Assembly (NCBI GenBank): GCA_023663265.1 | Contig: JAMPHV010000009.1 | Span: 1 to 52,780 of the forward strand | Direction of reading: 5' to 3' | Source of the DNA: Bacteroides sp. | GTDB taxonomy: Bacteria > Bacillota > Clostridia > Oscillospirales > Ruminococcaceae | DNA: 52,780 bases | Part shown: piece after piece, positions 1-5,994 of the stretch | How the letters are laid out: each line of letters begins with the position of its first letter | How positions within the stretch are numbered: the first letter of the stretch is position 1 | The notes under the pieces: model-generated | Database searches by the model: none | Told to the model about the DNA's origin: nothing | What the model saw: only the letters and a program-made list of their open reading frames with translations | Program-made: the position numbers and the translations under genes

Positions 1-35
1 CTTGCTGTTTCTATGACGGTTGATGTGAGTGCTGA

Positions 36-263
36 TTAAAAGGGATAGCCATATTTTATTATTACTACATCATAACCGATGATTTTGAAAAGCTTATGAA
101 CGATAAAAAAATATCCGATTACAGAAAAATTTTAGGGCTTTTAAAGAAAAACGGTATTCTATGCACCGAGGACAAGGGAAAGCTTATAAAACGAATATCG
201 CTTAAAGAACGTGGACGTATATCGACCTACTGTTTTAAAATTCCTGTTTCCTCGGATAATTAA
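36..263 (+). CDS. C-terminal fragment of an unrecognised protein, no start visible
   Basis: The frame is open from about 36 to the TAA at 261-263 but has no start codon before the internal ATG at 96. Residues such as DYRKILGLLKKNGIL followed by a basic, beta-rich tail look like the last helix-and-wing of a primase/helicase or replication-type protein, which is only a loose impression. Another frame ends with TAA at 37-39 (residues VDVSAD), so a gene end or a frameshift lies at the window edge. It is followed at once by a strong terminator, which supports a real gene end. The function is not recognised. Confidence 0.4.
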   Translation, partial: LKGIAIFYYYYIITDDFEKLMNDKKISDYRKILGLLKKNGILCTEDKGKLIKRISLKERGRISTYCFKIPVSSDN

Positions 264-281
264 GAAATATAATTATGTACA

Positions 282-327
282 TACGGCGGCTGACGTAAAC
301 AAGTACGTCAGCCGCCGTATTTTTTTA
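282..327 (+). terminator. Rho-independent terminator after the partial ORF
   Basis: A perfect 15-bp stem (ACGGCGGCTGACGTA and its complement) with a 6-nt loop is followed by seven T. It sits 19 bp after the stop at 261-263. Confidence 0.85.
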
Positions 328-411
328 CTTGATTTACGATTTACATATATATTATTATACAATAGTATTATTAAACATAGTAATTGGAGCATAGAAAATC
401 TTTTTTTACTT

Positions 412-445
412 AGGCGGCTGAAACAAAAATGTTTCAGCCGCCTGC
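412..445. terminator. Hairpin at the end of the leftward HTH gene
   Basis: A stem AGGCGGCTGAAAC with a 6-nt loop and perfect complement contains the stop codon of the leftward gene. The T-run (GCCTTTTTC) follows on the + strand, so it would best stop rightward transcription. The stem shares the core GGCGGCTGA with the terminator at 282-327. Confidence 0.5.
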
Positions 446-1150
446 CTTTTTCAGCACTTCCGATAAATCATAATCAAAGGTTTTATTACCCCAATATTTA
501 CGTGCATATTTATAAAACAGAGCATAGGAGAAAGGGCGTTCCTTGAAATCCTTATCTTCTTTCAGCTTATGGTAAACCTCTTCATAGTTTTTCTTTACCC
601 TGTTGTAGTGACGGTAGTACTTTACGGTGTTTTTGTACTTTTTGTTCATATTAACTCTTGTAAAGCCTGTAACGCTGTTGGGAAGGCTTCTGTTATTAAC
701 TGGGCTTAATATATCGTGCTTTACGTCATTGGGAGTCAGTCCGTATTCCGTTGCTATATTTTCCAAAATGGCGTTTATATATTCAAGTATGCTCCTGTCG
801 GCAATATAATAATTGAGATATTTTACACAATACTCTTTTATTTTCATTTCCATATCCAAGGAAAGAGTATTTTTATAGGCGGCGTTTAGCCTTTTCATAT
901 ATTTTTGCGCTTTAGGAGAACGGCAAAAGCATACTATGTCGTATTCACTGTCAAGCTTATGCAGCTTTACCGATTCCACAAGCGACTTTATGTCCTTAGA
1001 ATTAACAATATCGTCCTTTAAGTACAAATAACGGTTTACAGCCTTGCTTACGGTATTACGGCTATATTCCAAATATTCCGCCGTGGCTTTATTGGTTTTC
1101 AGTTTGTTGTAAACGCATATAAGAGTATACAGAGTTTCCTCGTTAGTCAT
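434..1150 (-). CDS. Helix-turn-helix protein of a mobile element, function unknown
   Basis: A 238-residue protein on the minus strand. Residues about 10-42 (TAEYLEYSRNTVSKAVNRYL is the core) look like a helix-turn-helix that recognises DNA. The rest is rich in Lys, Tyr and Asn with long predicted helices and no signal peptide or membrane segment. The start is preceded by GGAGA at a good distance. It lies between the partial gene and the small-ORF/recombinase region and is divergent from the latter, so a regulatory or accessory role in the element is a reasonable guess. I do not recognise the family. Confidence 0.6.
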   Translation of the reverse strand: MTNEETLYTLICVYNKLKTNKATAEYLEYSRNTVSKAVNRYLYLKDDIVNSKDIKSLVESVKLHKLDSEYDIVCFCRSPKAQKYMKRLNAAYKNTLSLDMEMKIKEYCVKYLNYYIADRSILEYINAILENIATEYGLTPNDVKHDILSPVNNRSLPNSVTGFTRVNMNKKYKNTVKYYRHYNRVKKNYEEVYHKLKEDKDFKERPFSYALFYKYARKYWGNKTFDYDLSEVLKKAGG

Positions 1151-1224
1151 TTTATTTTCTCCGAAATTTACTTATATTTGAGCTGCACACTTTGTCAAAA
1201 AAGTTTACTCGTACAAATCATTAT

Positions 1225-1240
1225 GGTTAATTTCTTAACC
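1225..1240. promoter_or_regulatory. Inverted repeat upstream of the small element ORFs
   Basis: GGTTAA-TTTC-TTAACC is a 6-bp inverted repeat in the divergent region between the HTH gene and the small hydrophobic ORF. Related TAACCG/GGTTAA words recur at about 1,769-1,806 ahead of recombinase A. It is a possible operator for the HTH protein, by inference only. Confidence 0.3.
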
Positions 1241-1266
1241 AAATTTTTTTCGAGGAGGCAGCTTTT

Positions 1267-1494
1267 ATGGTAAAGCTTCTTTTTCTTTTTCTTTTTCTTT
1301 TTCTTTTTCTTTTAATTCTATCACTTTTCCATTGGAAAAGCAACAGCCCTTTGTATATTCCGCAAAGGGCAAAACATCTGACGGCTTGGCTTATGTCAAC
1401 GCCGTTGTTTTATTTTATAAAGATATATGATATCTTTAGTGTTACCGTACAACCGTTCCCTCATATATCTGTAAAAAGGGGGGCAGCGGTATGA
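1267..1494 (+). CDS. Small hydrophobic ORF with a CTTTTT hexanucleotide repeat
   Basis: A 75-codon ORF with a textbook ribosome site, AGGAGG at 1,253-1,258, eight bases before ATG. Codons 4-16 are a run of Leu-Phe pairs encoded by about five tandem CTTTTT units, giving a strongly hydrophobic N-terminus that could be a membrane segment. It ends in an ATGA overlap with the next small gene, suggesting translational coupling. Two stable hairpins lie inside it (1,324-1,340 and 1,346-1,370). It may therefore be a leader that controls the downstream genes rather than a protein of its own. No family is recognised. Confidence 0.4.
   Translation: MVKLLFLFLFLFLFLLILSLFHWKSNSPLYIPQRAKHLTAWLMSTPLFYFIKIYDIFSVTVQPFPHISVKRGAAV
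1279..1316 (+). repeat. Hexanucleotide microsatellite (CTTTTT)n
   Basis: About five to six tandem CTTTTT units. The unit is six bases, so gain or loss keeps the frame and only changes the number of Leu-Phe pairs. Confidence 0.85.
1324..1370 (+). promoter_or_regulatory. Two consecutive RNA hairpins in the recombinase-module leader
   Basis: The first is CTTTTCC-ATT-GGAAAAG (1,324-1,340). The second is GCCCTTTG, a 9-nt loop, then CAAAGGGC (1,346-1,370). Neither is followed directly by a T-run, so they look like leader structure rather than terminators. Confidence 0.4.
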
Positions 1495-1682
1495 AACTGA
1501 AACGAGGTATTCCGAGAAAGTATGTATGTATCAGTATGCCCTCCGATTTAAGCGAACGGCAGGATATAATCGATTTTAACTTGTCCTTGGCTGTTTTAAG
1601 TTCTTTAGAGAAAAGGGGATTTTTAAATTACAAGCAGTATTCCTCCTGTGTAGAGGAAATGAAAAAAATTTTTGGAAAGTAG
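1491..1682 (+). CDS. Small basic protein paired with the recombinase (SHOCT-like), intact copy
   Basis: 63 residues, start ATG in an ATGA overlap with the preceding ORF and preceded by a GGGGGG-rich site. The C-terminal half (LEKRGFLNYKQYSSCVEEMKK) has the pattern of short SHOCT-type helices, 'Leu..rG.l...qy......'. Such small genes often sit just before large serine recombinases in clostridial elements. A second, truncated copy lies ahead of recombinase B at 3,498-3,647. The role is unknown; control of excision direction is one possibility, by inference only. Confidence 0.6.
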   Translation: MKLKRGIPRKYVCISMPSDLSERQDIIDFNLSLAVLSSLEKRGFLNYKQYSSCVEEMKKIFGK

Positions 1683-1708
1683 TGCTTATATACGCGTAAA
1701 TTTCGGTG

Positions 1709-1746
1709 GAGCTGTAAGTAAAATTACAGCTCTGCTGTATTTTTTA
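1709..1746 (+). terminator. Terminator-like hairpin between the small gene and recombinase A
   Basis: The stem GAGCTGTAA, a 6-nt loop and TTACAGCTC are followed by TGCTGTATTTTTTA. A related GAGCTGC hairpin occupies the same place in the second module (3,633-3,659). Confidence 0.7.
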
Positions 1747-1836
1747 TATTGGCGAAAAAAGTTGAATATTTAACCGAATTGTAACCGAAGTATGTTATTA
1801 TGGTTAATACAAAAATAATGAAAGGCGGTAAAAACC

Positions 1837-3507
1837 ATGAGCGTAAGTAAATATTATAAAATGAACGAGGAGTATCTCCTTAGTAAAGCTGAAAAGGAAG
1901 CTGTAAAAACCAAGCGTGTCGCTGCATACTGCCGTGTATCAACCGATAGCGACGATCAAGCAAGCTCTTTGGAAAACCAGCAAGAATTTTTTAAAAAGGA
2001 AATAAATAATAACCCCAATTGGGTGCTGTATGATATATTTACCGATGAGGGTAAATCAGGTACAAACACCAAAAATAGGAAAGCGTTCAACCGTATGATT
2101 GAGTGCGCACGAAACGGCGAAATAGACTTGATTATCACCAAGGATATTTCCCGTTTTGCACGAAATGTTATGGATTGCCTTACATTTACACAAGAATTGT
2201 ATGACTTGGGAGTTGAGGTTCGGTTTTTAACTCAAAATATCAGTACCTTTGATTCAGCCTATAAGATAATCTTTTTAATTTTGTCGGCATTTGCGCAAGA
2301 GGAAAGCAGAAATACCTCTATGCGTGTAAGATTCGGGCAAGGACAGCGAATGGAAGAGGGAGTGACTTTCGGAAGAAGCTTGCTTGGATATGACGTTAAG
2401 GACGGCAAAATAACCGTAAACGAGGAGGAAGCAAAAATAGTTAGACGAATATTCGAGAAAGCCTTAGAAGGTAAAGGCTCTCATGTAATTGCAAGAGAAT
2501 TGATGGAAGAAGGTTTTTTCCCAAAAGAATCAAAGCGTTGGAGTAGTGCAACCGTTCTTAGGGTGCTGCAAAATGAAAAATATTGCGGTGACTTGGTTCA
2601 GGGAAAAACCTATACGCCCGATTATCTCACACATAAAAGAGCAGTCAATCATGGTGAATCGAAATTTTACATTATAGAGAATCATCATGAGCCGATAATA
2701 TCAAAGGAAGTGTTTGATAAGGTAAATGAGATGTTAAACGAACGGTCAAAATCACAAAGAGGCAAATCAAAGTACAGCAACCGCTATGTCTTTTCTGGCA
2801 AAATCAAGTGCAGTGCGTGCGGTTCAAGCTATGTTTCAAGAATCAGGGAAAGAAAAGACGACTCTCCCTATAAGGATTGGCGGTGTAGTGAAGCCGTCAA
2901 TCACGGCAAGCCAAAAATCGATCAATCCGGCAATCAGGTAGGCTGTTCGCTGAACGCCGTCAGAGATGAGGACGCTGCACACCTTATGTATCTTACCCTT
3001 AAAAGCTTGAAAGCAAATGAAAAAAAAATCAAGAGCAGTGTATTAAAAACCGTTAAGTCCGTTATAGCGGAAACCTCGGAAGAGTCAACCCTTAAACAGC
3101 TTAAAGCAGAGTTGGAAAAGCAATCGGAAAAAGGCAACAAGCTGTTGGATATTTATATGAGCAATACGATAACAAAGGAAGAATATCTTAACAGAAAGTC
3201 CGAGATAGATTTGACCGTAAGCAGAATAAATGAGGAAATTCAGAGAATAAACAGCCGTGAAAAAATCCGACAAAGTCAAGATAAGCTTATGTCCGATATA
3301 GAAAATGCTATTGACGAAATTTTGAACGGAGTTGAGAAAGAGGACGAATTTTACAGGGAGATACTCGATAAAATGGTCGTAATCGACAAGGACACTATGG
3401 ACGTTTATTTGAAATTTGTACCCGAAAAATGGCGTTATGTTTTAGCCAACGCTGCCAAGGATAAATATGATGTGGTCTTTTCCGACACAGAATTACCTCC
3501 GATTTAA
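1837..3507 (+). CDS. Large serine recombinase A
   Basis: 556 residues, the usual size of a large serine integrase. The N-terminal resolvase domain (about 27-180) carries the nucleophile Ser35 in AAYCRVSTDS and the arginines of ISRFARN. It is followed by the 'recombinase' DNA-binding domain (about 190-300), a zinc ribbon (CSAC, then two later Cys, about 330-375) and a long charged coiled coil (about 395-490). It would cut and rejoin DNA at att sites with a 2-base crossover. From about residue 185 on it closely matches recombinase B, but the segment around residues 125-165 differs strongly. Its end is abnormal: after VVFSDT it reads ELPPI and stops inside a truncated copy of the small gene. Confidence 0.93.
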   Translation: MSVSKYYKMNEEYLLSKAEKEAVKTKRVAAYCRVSTDSDDQASSLENQQEFFKKEINNNPNWVLYDIFTDEGKSGTNTKNRKAFNRMIECARNGEIDLIITKDISRFARNVMDCLTFTQELYDLGVEVRFLTQNISTFDSAYKIIFLILSAFAQEESRNTSMRVRFGQGQRMEEGVTFGRSLLGYDVKDGKITVNEEEAKIVRRIFEKALEGKGSHVIARELMEEGFFPKESKRWSSATVLRVLQNEKYCGDLVQGKTYTPDYLTHKRAVNHGESKFYIIENHHEPIISKEVFDKVNEMLNERSKSQRGKSKYSNRYVFSGKIKCSACGSSYVSRIRERKDDSPYKDWRCSEAVNHGKPKIDQSGNQVGCSLNAVRDEDAAHLMYLTLKSLKANEKKIKSSVLKTVKSVIAETSEESTLKQLKAELEKQSEKGNKLLDIYMSNTITKEEYLNRKSEIDLTVSRINEEIQRINSREKIRQSQDKLMSDIENAIDEILNGVEKEDEFYREILDKMVVIDKDTMDVYLKFVPEKWRYVLANAAKDKYDVVFSDTELPPI

Positions 3508-3647
3508 GCGAACGGCAGGACGTAATTGATTTAAATGCGTCCTTGGCTGTGTTAAGTTCCTTAAAGAAAAGAGGACTGATGAATGAGGAGCAGTATTCCC
3601 GTTGTGTAAACGAAACAAAAAAGAAGTTTAAAAAGAGCTGCGACTGA
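3498..3647 (+). pseudogene. Truncated second copy of the small recombinase-associated gene
   Basis: In the frame starting at 3,498 the sequence reads SDLSERQDVIDLNASLAVL and continues to TGA at 3,645-3,647, closely matching residues 18-63 of the small protein at 1,491-1,682. Its first 17 codons and start are missing. They are replaced by the 3' end of recombinase A, joined at a CCT shared by both parents. It is presumably not translated from its own start. Confidence 0.8.
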
Positions 3648-3665
3648 AATGCAGCTCTTAATTTT
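3633..3665 (+). terminator. Hairpin ahead of recombinase B
   Basis: AAGAGCTGC, a 9-nt loop containing the TGA stop of the truncated gene, then GCAGCTCTT and TAATTTTA. It is the counterpart of the 1,709-1,746 hairpin in the first module. Confidence 0.55.
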
Positions 3666-3688
3666 ATGACGAAAGGACAGTACTAAAA

Positions 3689-5392
3689 ATGTATACCGAA
3701 AAATACGAATCGCTTAAAAAAGAATACGAGGTTTTAAAGCTTAAAAAAATAAAAAAAGTAGCGGCTTACTGCCGTGTATCGACCGACAGCGACGAACAGT
3801 CGGGTTCGCTTGAAAATCAGCGTCTGTATTTTCAGGACTACATTACAAAGCATGAAAACTGGGAGTTGTACGAGATATTTGCCGAAGAGGGAAAGTCGGG
3901 TACAAGCACCAAAAACCGCACCGAGTTTAACCGAATGATAAGCTGCGCTTACAAGGGAGAGATAGATGTAATAATCACTAAAGAAATTTCACGTTTTGCC
4001 CGAAACGTTCTTGACAGTATCAAATACACAAGAGAGTTAAGGGCAATAGGCGTTGAGGTCATATTTTTAAACGACAATATCAATACGATAAACCCCAAGG
4101 ACGAATTTATACTTACTCTGCGGGGTTCTATAGCGCAAAGCGAAAGTGCCGCCACCTCCGAACGTGTTAAGTGGGGGCAGAAAATACAGATGAAAAAAGG
4201 TGTGGTTTTCGGGGGCAGTCTGTTGGGATATGACGTTAAAGACGGTAAGATAAGCGTAAATAAAGAGGGAGCGGAAATAGTAAAGCGAATATTTGAAAAA
4301 TGCGTAAACGAGGGCAAGGGTACTCATGTAATTGCCAGAGAGCTTATGGAAGAAGGCTTCTTTCCGCAGAAGACAAAATACTGGACTAATATCGCCGTAC
4401 TCAGAATTTTGAGAAACGAAAAATACTGCGGCGATTTGGTTCAAGGGAAAACCTATACCCCCGATTTCCTTACCCACGAAAAAAAGAAAAACAGGGGCGA
4501 ATCCGAGATAGTTATTATCAAGGATCACCATGAGCCGATAGTGTCGAGGGAAGTGTTTGAAAGAGCAAACAAGATACTTGACGAACGCTCCGACTCACAG
4601 ACAGGCAAATCCAAGCACAGCAACCGCTATGCCTTTTCGGGCAAAATCAAATGCGGCGTATGCGGTTCAAGCTATGTTTCAAGAATAAGGAAACGCAAGG
4701 ACGGCACTTCCTATAAAGACTGGCGGTGCGGCAATGCCGTTAATCACGGTAAGCCGAAAATCGACCAATTCGGCAATCAGGTAGGCTGTTCGCTGAACGC
4801 CGTAAGAGATGAGGACGCTGCGCACCTTATGTATCTTACCCTTAAAAGCCTAAAAGCGAACAACAAGAAAATAAAGAACAGCGTATTAAAAACAGTTAAG
4901 TCCGTTATAGCCGAAACCTCGGGCGACCCAAGCTTAAGAAAGCTTGAAAAGGAGTTGGAAAAGCAAACGGAAAAAGGGGAAAAGCTTCTCGATATTTATA
5001 TGAACGATATTATCACAAGGGAAGAGTACCTTAAGAAAAAAAACGAAATTGATTTATCGGCGGAAAAAATAAAGGAAGATATACAGGGGATAAGAAGCCG
5101 TGAAAAAATGCAGGAAAATCAAGATAAGCTGTTTAGCGACATTGAAAAAGCCGTTGACGAAGTCTTAAACGGTGTCCGATATGACGATTGGTTTTACAGG
5201 TCAATACTTGATAAAATGGTTGTGGTTGACAAGGACACGGTGGACGTTTATCTTAATTTCTTGCCCGAAAACTGGCGTTATGTCATAGCCGATGCTGCCA
5301 AAGATAAATATGAAGTGGTCTTTTCCGATACAGATGTACCTATATCCGTCAACAACCCGATTCCCATGTTATCCGGCATGGTGAACCTTTGA
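3689..5392 (+). CDS. Large serine recombinase B, reading through the attachment site
   Basis: 567 residues with the same domain order as recombinase A. Ser31 in AAYCRVSTDS is the nucleophile. A resolvase domain runs to about 175, then the DNA-binding domain, a zinc ribbon (CGVC with two later Cys) and a coiled coil. The start ATG follows GAAAGG. From residue 550 onward the codons lie in the antisense of cotJC, so the last 18 residues (VPISVNNPIPMLSGMVNL) are borrowed from the integration site and would change when the element moves. It is the gene nearest the junction, which is typical for an integrase acting on the adjacent att site, and it is the better candidate for the active enzyme. Confidence 0.93.
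   Translation: MYTEKYESLKKEYEVLKLKKIKKVAAYCRVSTDSDEQSGSLENQRLYFQDYITKHENWELYEIFAEEGKSGTSTKNRTEFNRMISCAYKGEIDVIITKEISRFARNVLDSIKYTRELRAIGVEVIFLNDNINTINPKDEFILTLRGSIAQSESAATSERVKWGQKIQMKKGVVFGGSLLGYDVKDGKISVNKEGAEIVKRIFEKCVNEGKGTHVIARELMEEGFFPQKTKYWTNIAVLRILRNEKYCGDLVQGKTYTPDFLTHEKKKNRGESEIVIIKDHHEPIVSREVFERANKILDERSDSQTGKSKHSNRYAFSGKIKCGVCGSSYVSRIRKRKDGTSYKDWRCGNAVNHGKPKIDQFGNQVGCSLNAVRDEDAAHLMYLTLKSLKANNKKIKNSVLKTVKSVIAETSGDPSLRKLEKELEKQTEKGEKLLDIYMNDIITREEYLKKKNEIDLSAEKIKEDIQGIRSREKMQENQDKLFSDIEKAVDEVLNGVRYDDWFYRSILDKMVVVDKDTVDVYLNFLPENWRYVIADAAKDKYEVVFSDTDVPISVNNPIPMLSGMVNL
5328..5345. other. Element-chromosome junction (att site) in cotJC
   Basis: On the + strand GATACAGATGTACC joins TATATCCGTC. 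The right part is the complement of cotJC codons for TDIG. The left part matches the end of recombinase A (ACAGAATTACCT) and so belongs to the element. The crossover must lie in or next to TGTACC (about 5,335-5,340), which contains the palindrome GTAC. The exact dinucleotide cannot be fixed without the other junction. Confidence 0.75.
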
Positions 5393-5523
5393 GAAAGATA
5401 TCTCAACGACGCGCTCAGCTCGCCGTCGGGACCGCCGTACTGACTTAAAATGATTCCTGCCAGCTTTGGGTTCCTGTTGTTTATTCTTACAGGTATTTGT
5501 GTTCTTTTTTCAAAAATAAACAT
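5335..5523 (-). pseudogene. cotJC: cotJC, 5' fragment interrupted by the element
   Basis: The first 63 codons match the start of CotJC, the manganese-catalase-like spore coat protein: NPKLAGIILSQYGGPDGE and ASLRYLSQR are family hallmarks. After LLTDIGT the family continues with glutamates and a metal-binding His region, but here the frame enters recombinase B antisense, adds 18 foreign residues and stops at 5,278. GGGAGG precedes the ATG, and the gene follows cotJB by 14 bases. The ligand residues of the catalase fold are lost, so the fragment cannot work unless the element is excised. Confidence 0.9.
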
Positions 5524-5537
5524 TTTCTATACCTCCC

Positions 5538-5795
5538 TCAAACCGTTTCGGGAGGCCAGGTGCCCCTGAGCCAATCCCAGCACTCATCGTCCTTGCTGCC
5601 GCAGGTGTTCAGAGGGTAACAGCTGCATTCAAAGGCGTCCTTGCATGCCTTGTACTGCTTGCATGCCTCCTTGAACATCTCTATGGCGGCGGTATCGTTG
5701 GGGTGCGTGTCAAGATAAAGATTTAAATCCTGCATATAAAAGCACGCTTCGTCAACTGCCTGAAGCAGACGGCGGCAGTTTGAATTATTTTCCAT
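5538..5795 (-). CDS. cotJB: Spore coat protein CotJB
   Basis: 85 residues, the normal size. The DEACFYMQDLNLYLDTHP segment and the C-terminal CWDWLRGTWPPE ending are typical of CotJB. It is a small, Cys-rich soluble protein that goes into the inner spore coat with CotJA and CotJC. Its start overlaps the cotJA stop by 11 bases and cotJC follows 14 bases on, so the three were one operon. In Bacillus this operon is read in the mother cell under sigma-E. Here cotJB is intact although cotJC is broken. Confidence 0.92.
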   Translation of the reverse strand: MENNSNCRRLLQAVDEACFYMQDLNLYLDTHPNDTAAIEMFKEACKQYKACKDAFECSCYPLNTCGSKDDECWDWLRGTWPPETV

Positions 5796-5994
5796 CCCAA
5801 AGCCCCCTTTCGTATTCGTTTATGGTGATGTTAAGCTCGGGAAAGATAGTTCCGACCGAAAGCGCCTTTTGAGGGGAATACACTTTTCCGATACCGTTCT
5901 GCATAGCCGCGAATACATAGCCCAACGGAGCCCTGGGGCATATGTTCGCACATTGCGTATCATGGCATTTTTGCCATTGCGATTGTGTTTGCAT
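5785..5994 (-). CDS. cotJA: Spore coat associated protein CotJA
   Basis: 69 residues. The C-terminal half (FSPQ-type ALSVGTIFPEL) is the CotJA signature 'a...GT.fPeL'. The N-terminus has several Cys (HDTQCANICPRAP). It is the first gene of the cotJ operon, preceded by AAAGGAAC. About 60 bases upstream there are AT-rich stretches where a sigma-E promoter could lie, but I cannot assign one with confidence. Confidence 0.88.
   Translation of the reverse strand: MQTQSQWQKCHDTQCANICPRAPLGYVFAAMQNGIGKVYSPQKALSVGTIFPELNITINEYERGLWDGK

Follow-up and report, generated by a model that had tools for sequence, protein, structure and literature searches.

A spore-coat gene, cotJC, split by a large serine recombinase element, and the recurrent splitting of cotJC at several sites in related genomes

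cotJ is a mother-cell operon and a coat gene locus. The DNA analyzed here (the window, 52780 bases) carries on its minus strand, in this order, cotJA (5994-5785), cotJB (5795-5538) and the 5' part of cotJC (5523-5335, codons 1-63), with cotJB 24 nt upstream of the cotJC part. A sequence-only reading of this DNA had described cotJA and cotJB as intact and in order, which is borne out by their matches to PF11007 (E 1.4e-8, 34.9 bits for a cut-off of 25) and PF12652 (E 3.6e-22, 78.8 bits, cut-off 29); both genes are complete. The same reading had cotJC stopping after 63 codons, at LLTDIGT, beside a large serine recombinase (LSR) gene. Indeed, the 5' part matches only positions 1-64 of the Mn catalase profile PF05067 (E 5e-15, 55.7 bits), the similarity ceasing at LLTDIGT (position 64), and an LSR ORF on the plus strand (LSR 2, 3689-5392) has its 3' end at the junction and crosses it, so that the final ~18 codons of the ORF read antisense to cotJC. 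The break of cotJC at an LSR gene in the window is confirmed, and it is not a chance break, because dozens of relatives are broken at the same codon. The probable crossover core is GGTACA (5335-5340, minus strand), placed there because the cotJC similarity stops at this point and because relatives have GGTAC-type cores at the same codon. The intervening element thus sits inside a sporulation gene, the cotJC 5' part lying behind cotJA and cotJB. Its visible end covers positions 1-5334 (no strand assigned) and it continues past the contig edge. The window takes up contig C133 completely, so it cannot be extended leftward to the far junction, which lies beyond the assembly.

The element carries a second LSR gene in tandem with the first (LSR 1, 1837-3507, plus strand), recognized from its Pfam domains and its place in the LSR tree. 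The two proteins are 67% identical, and both contain the Resolvase, Recombinase and Zn ribbon domains in that order (PF00239, PF07508 and PF13408 for LSR 2), each above its Pfam cut-off; the window LSR is assigned to the PHROG 95 integrases. At E<=0.001, they give the only two PF07508 matches of the window genome, compared with 21 in G204, of the same genus, three in G132 and one in G015. A 63-aa ORF (1491-1682, plus strand) lies upstream of LSR 1. A second copy, without a start, was found by profile match upstream of LSR 2 (3495-3647, plus strand), where the open frame 3471-3644 compares with the profile of the 63-aa ORF at 1.6e-33. As each LSR gene is preceded by a copy of this ORF, the pair is read as an old tandem duplication, LSR 1 being the older copy. 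Similar ORFs stand directly upstream of six LSR ORFs out of 129; the six include both LSRs of the window, and for two of the six the similarity is weak. The 63-aa ORF has no match in Pfam, PHROG or NCBIfam at E<=0.01; it is a candidate directionality factor, this assignment being a guess. In the LSR tree, the window LSRs group with an LSR of G204, all three belonging to the cotJC site near codon 65, and no close relative of the window LSR was confirmed in the genome and viral collections. A run of CTTTTT repeats is also found at 1284-1314, within a 75-aa ORF (1267-1494).

The 3' part of cotJC was not found in the window genome (96.5% complete, 133 contigs), either with PF05067 at E<=10 or with a profile made from the 3' parts of 15 relatives. 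The genome does encode one unsplit Mn catalase, on contig C87. The sequence-only reading had asked whether a second intact cotJC exists elsewhere; the C87 copy was rejected as such, being a diverged paralog that shares 27-33% identity with the cotJC of three genomes of the same genus and is not preceded by cotJB. Among the 81 full-length Mn catalase rows that were scored, cotJB is upstream in 61 and absent in 20 (19 distinct genes, C87 included). The cotJC 5' parts have cotJB 9-60 nt upstream in 42 of 42 rows, which represent 41 distinct loci as the window is counted twice; one of them, L140, is cut by a contig end. Within these full-length rows and 5' parts, splitting was seen only in the cotJ-operon copy. 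Full-length copies of G109 (C64), G027 (C36) and Ruminiclostridium papyrosolvens (C30) were considered as captured excised alleles and rejected because of their paralog-like scores and their 30-52% protein identity to the pieces; cotJB is absent from the stretch retrieved around each of them. A partial second copy in G088, 32% identical to the full copy of that genome, was rejected in the same way.

A search of 247 genomes of the family with the PF05067 profile gave a match in 168, among which 71 (42 whose best match was weak, 29 whose matches were multiple or partial) were searched again for weaker pieces. Left out of the count were full-length copies, the partial rows of G060 and G157 C228, and distant ferritin-like matches (starts at about positions 9-32, second halves starting at 118-143). 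A complementary pair of cotJC pieces is present in at least 54 of the 168 genomes, a lower bound since only the 71 were searched for weak pieces, and at least one piece is present in 63, one of which (G034) is cut by a contig end only. Sorted by site, at least 33 pairs are split at codon ~65, at least 23 at ~33 and at least 7 at ~137, and in nine genomes cotJC is broken at two of these sites. Near codon 180 there is a fourth site, recognized from prematurely ending 3' parts that have an LSR beside them. The sequence-only reading had dealt with one element; the clade has four or more sites, and several lineages of LSR.

When both halves lie on one contig, they are in the correct order and on the same strand in 20 of 24 pairs, with gaps of 2.0 to 91 kb. 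The four exceptions comprise halves on opposite strands in G005 (L350-L351) and G100 (L356), and halves in reversed order in G145 (L355), 11 kb apart, and in G132. The arrangements of G145, G100 and G005 look as if later inversions had acted. In G132, a single contig of 2694742 bases, the halves (L068 3618-3806 and L069 5270-5641) are on the same strand and 675 kb apart, and the element ends are well matched; if the assembly is correct, recombination would leave the rebuilt cotJC on a circle of 675 kb. Named organisms, isolates among them, show the same organization. The halves are 99 kb apart in Caproiciproducens galactitolivorans BS-1, where 10 nt separate an LSR from the 3' part. In Ruminiclostridium papyrosolvens C7, cotJC is in three pieces distributed over two contigs, one LSR lying between pieces 1 and 2 and another after piece 2. 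In the record of Pusillibacter faecalis MM59, the halves are 30 kb apart, and the element carries mobilization and replication genes and an LSR 44% identical to that of the window. In a wider genome scan, the best 80 of at least 583 confirmed loci include 55 full-length copies, four that end near codon 178 and 21 otherwise incomplete within the retrieved stretch.

Break edges fall within 200 bp of a contig end in 17 of 102 cases, against 1.7 expected. This excess would fit the coexistence of excised and integrated forms, of which it is only a hint; it could also come from repeats, from mixed strains or from breaks created by the contig end itself.

On the PF05067 profile, the breaks fall at codons ~27-33, ~61-67, ~136 and ~177-183. 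The metal ligands of the Mn catalase structure 1jku, which we take to be E35, E66, H69, E148 and H181, align with E35, E65, H68, E136 and H169 in a typical intact CotJC. The first three break sites coincide with a ligand or precede one by a few codons, and the fourth is about 8-14 codons after one. Judged from this alignment, all four places lie on or close to the codon of a metal ligand. The 3' part contains four ligand positions, whose residues are invariant in 14 detached sequences and one intact sequence.

Fifty-nine LSR genes were found within 3 kb of a break, and 51 of them have their 3' end facing it. In a tree of 55 break-adjacent LSRs, whose long branches were flagged, the site label requires five changes for a minimum of three, against a mean of 20.7 for shuffled labels; none of 200 shuffles was as low as five. 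Two LSRs do not fit, L213 and L091, and the label of L091 may be an error. The tree argues that each LSR lineage keeps to one cotJC site over long divergence. A scripted search for a common core joining the two halves in frame was applied to 38 pairs. A core of 5-12 nt was obtained for 27 pairs; another eight had one of only 3-4 nt, these short cores being weak and some of them possibly wrong, and three (G204, of the same genus as the window, G091 and G150) had no shared in-frame core. The outer 40 nt of the element ends have a dyad symmetry above that of swapped pairs (mean of 15.3 vs 13.1 matches in 31 pairs at site 65; 0 of 5000 permutations), as should be expected of LSR attP sites. The score is 13 or lower, no better than swapped pairs, in 13 of the 31, BS-1 and L234 being the lowest, perhaps because every pair was anchored at codon 61. 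The ends of the G132 element score third best (21). A scan for sigma-E motifs was blank in the LSRs and equally blank in the cotJ positive control.

The detached 3' parts could be compared between close relatives. Substitution rates are dN 0.015 and dS 0.44 for G239/G179, dN 0.023-0.029 and dS 0.55-0.56 for G111/G190, dN 0.022 and dS 0.90 for G076/G166, dN 0.049 and dS 1.33 for G162/G229, dN 0.024 and dS 1.23 for L276/L277, dN 0.073 and dS 0.93 for L213/L235, and dN 0.043 and dS 0.74 for L309/L310, whose insertions may be independent since their LSRs are only 59% identical. Close detached pairs thus give dN/dS of 0.02-0.08. For intact cotJC, 17 pairs have dN under 0.1, and the 10 with a finite dS give 0.02-0.10. 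Constraint therefore appears alike on split and intact genes in close pairs. Across all pairs with dS of 0.15-1.3, the median dN/dS is 0.30 for split and 0.22 for intact genes; the higher split median was put down to saturation, and as most of these pairs look saturated, only close pairs were used. In G239/G179 and G111/G190 (dN/dS 0.03-0.05), an LSR is at the same place in both species (86% and 96% identical, dS 0.57 and 0.34), and the DNA alignments extend through the LSR and the 3' part. From these shared positions and through-running alignments, the element was most likely inserted before the two species diverged, and the 3' part was conserved while detached; horizontal transfer of the element may instead account for the likeness. 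By contrast with these conserved cases, G027 (L344, L345) has its 3' part in two frames and a fragmented LSR, and would be a decayed split cotJC, the one case of this kind.

The preservation of the cotJC pieces suggests that the elements are cut out and the gene rejoined during sporulation. The sequence-only reading had hesitated between a skin-type element and a simple disruption. The relatives' halves, cores, attP-like ends and dN/dS values favor the former, but the 3' part was not found for the window itself. We consider it likely that the elements of the window and its relatives are skin-like, being excised in the mother cell with rebuilding of cotJC. By such a mechanism, an LSR-bearing mobile element would have integrated into cotJC around the codons of the Mn-ligand motif GTEELAH. 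In the mother cell, the LSR and a directionality factor, perhaps the small upstream ORF, would recombine attL with attR; the element would be deleted and cotJC rejoined in frame, the forespore retaining the element, and the split would be beneficial or neutral for the host. In some genomes, three or more pieces would need joining. From the site and tree data, cotJC appears to be a lasting target of several LSR lineages, with each lineage confined to a single one of the four places. A bolder proposal, to which we would give about even chances, is that cotJC resembles a gene with DNA introns, the coat catalase depending on mother-cell-specific excision of one to at least three elements of 2 kb to ~100 kb. 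If so, rearranged chromosomes of the G132 type would resolve into two circles.

A different account, which we find unlikely but the most serious of the rivals, is ordinary insertion of phages or integrative elements: cotJC would be a common attB, dead in carriers, with excision only on induction, its loss being tolerated because the cell can do without the coat catalase or has a paralog that replaces it. The intact paralog of the window genome and the mobilization and replication genes of the MM59 element are consistent with it, as are the viral collections: among the best 80 of 86 IMG/VR loci, a set that contains near-copies, cotJC is truncated in 73, and an LSR is within 300 bp in 50, all of them truncated. 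Against it, the detached 3' parts are as strongly constrained as intact genes in close pairs, the halves remain joinable, and the LSR lineages stay at one site over long divergence. Conservation of both parts could also mean that the split is the working state, 5' and 3' chains assembling into a two-part catalase without DNA excision. This seems very improbable, since the window part reads straight into the element, several 5' parts end at most a few codons away from the junction, no conserved start or promoter was seen for the 3' parts, and three-piece genes would require fragments of ~30 residues. It is hardly credible, finally, that an assembly artefact joined the end of cotJC to an unrelated recombinase contig. 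The genome is a draft and break edges are in excess at contig ends, but the same type of junction recurs in dozens of assemblies, including those of BS-1, R. papyrosolvens C7 and MM59. Mother-cell excision is the reading that we prefer.

The closest known systems are the elements that interrupt sporulation genes. As with skin, located in sigK of B. subtilis and C. difficile (PMC4191935, PMC10747680), a mother-cell sporulation gene is interrupted by an element that itself encodes a serine recombinase; unlike skin, which interrupts a sigma factor, the target here is a coat catalase, several sites and lineages are involved, and excision is a prediction. The gin element in gerE of B. cereus ATCC10987 (28.6-kb, without phage genes) has a 9-bp shared core and three serine recombinases of low similarity, and its excision restores the gerE frame (PMC5595907). 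More than one serine recombinase is a feature in common with the window, and shared cores with a frame-restoring join are a feature in common with its relatives; gin occupies one site with dissimilar recombinases, whereas the two LSRs of the window are tandem relatives. The yin element in yabG of C. botulinum (PMC10747680), SP-beta in spsM, vfbin in spoVFB and vrin in spoVR (PMC4191935, PMC10747680) are likewise prophage-like elements in coat or spore genes with a recombinase at one end; they use other genes, and the parts consulted describe no multi-site splitting. The prophage phi027 of C. difficile R20291 also adjoins a CotJC homologue (PMC11222575, PMC12122855). It was rejected as a published split cotJC, because the 678-bp ORF is placed just outside attR and no split is described in the parts consulted (PMC11222575, PMC12122855). 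No report of a split cotJC was found in the titles and abstracts searched, most subscription journals and preprints being outside their scope; the term cotJC is absent from the main text of PMC5595907, and cotJ from those of PMC4191935, PMC10083194 and PMC10747680. The novelty of the split is accordingly provisional.

In the sources covered, programmed rearrangement concerned sigK, spsM, spoVFB, spoVR, gerE and yabG, with one element and one site each. By comparison, a single coat gene is affected in at least 54 of the 168 family genomes with an Mn catalase match, roughly one in three, and at four conserved places. If excision is confirmed, these loci would be natural replicates for asking why elements choose sporulation genes, in which order several excisions occur and whether the split itself is useful. 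They also supply LSRs for which attB and attP sites are predicted. The cotJC pieces are probably labelled as pseudogenes by annotation pipelines, so that spore-coat predictions for such bacteria may be wrong.

Several single loci deserve mention. The split cotJC of MM59 is on a 504-kb 'plasmid' (NZ_AP023421.1; L258, L259) beside dxs, tyrS, ruvABC, ligA, murD and radA, so that either a second replicon carries core genes or part of the chromosome has been mis-labelled. Pseudobacteroides cellulosolvens (L180) has two 3' parts on the same strand, separated by 8 kb, and another at a different place in its genome, its 5' pieces being only short. In G204, translated repeats beside an LSR (L161 278-707) resemble a CRISPR array, and at another locus of this genome (L087 5714-7897), the LSR frame continues into the cotJC 3' part as a 728-codon open frame.
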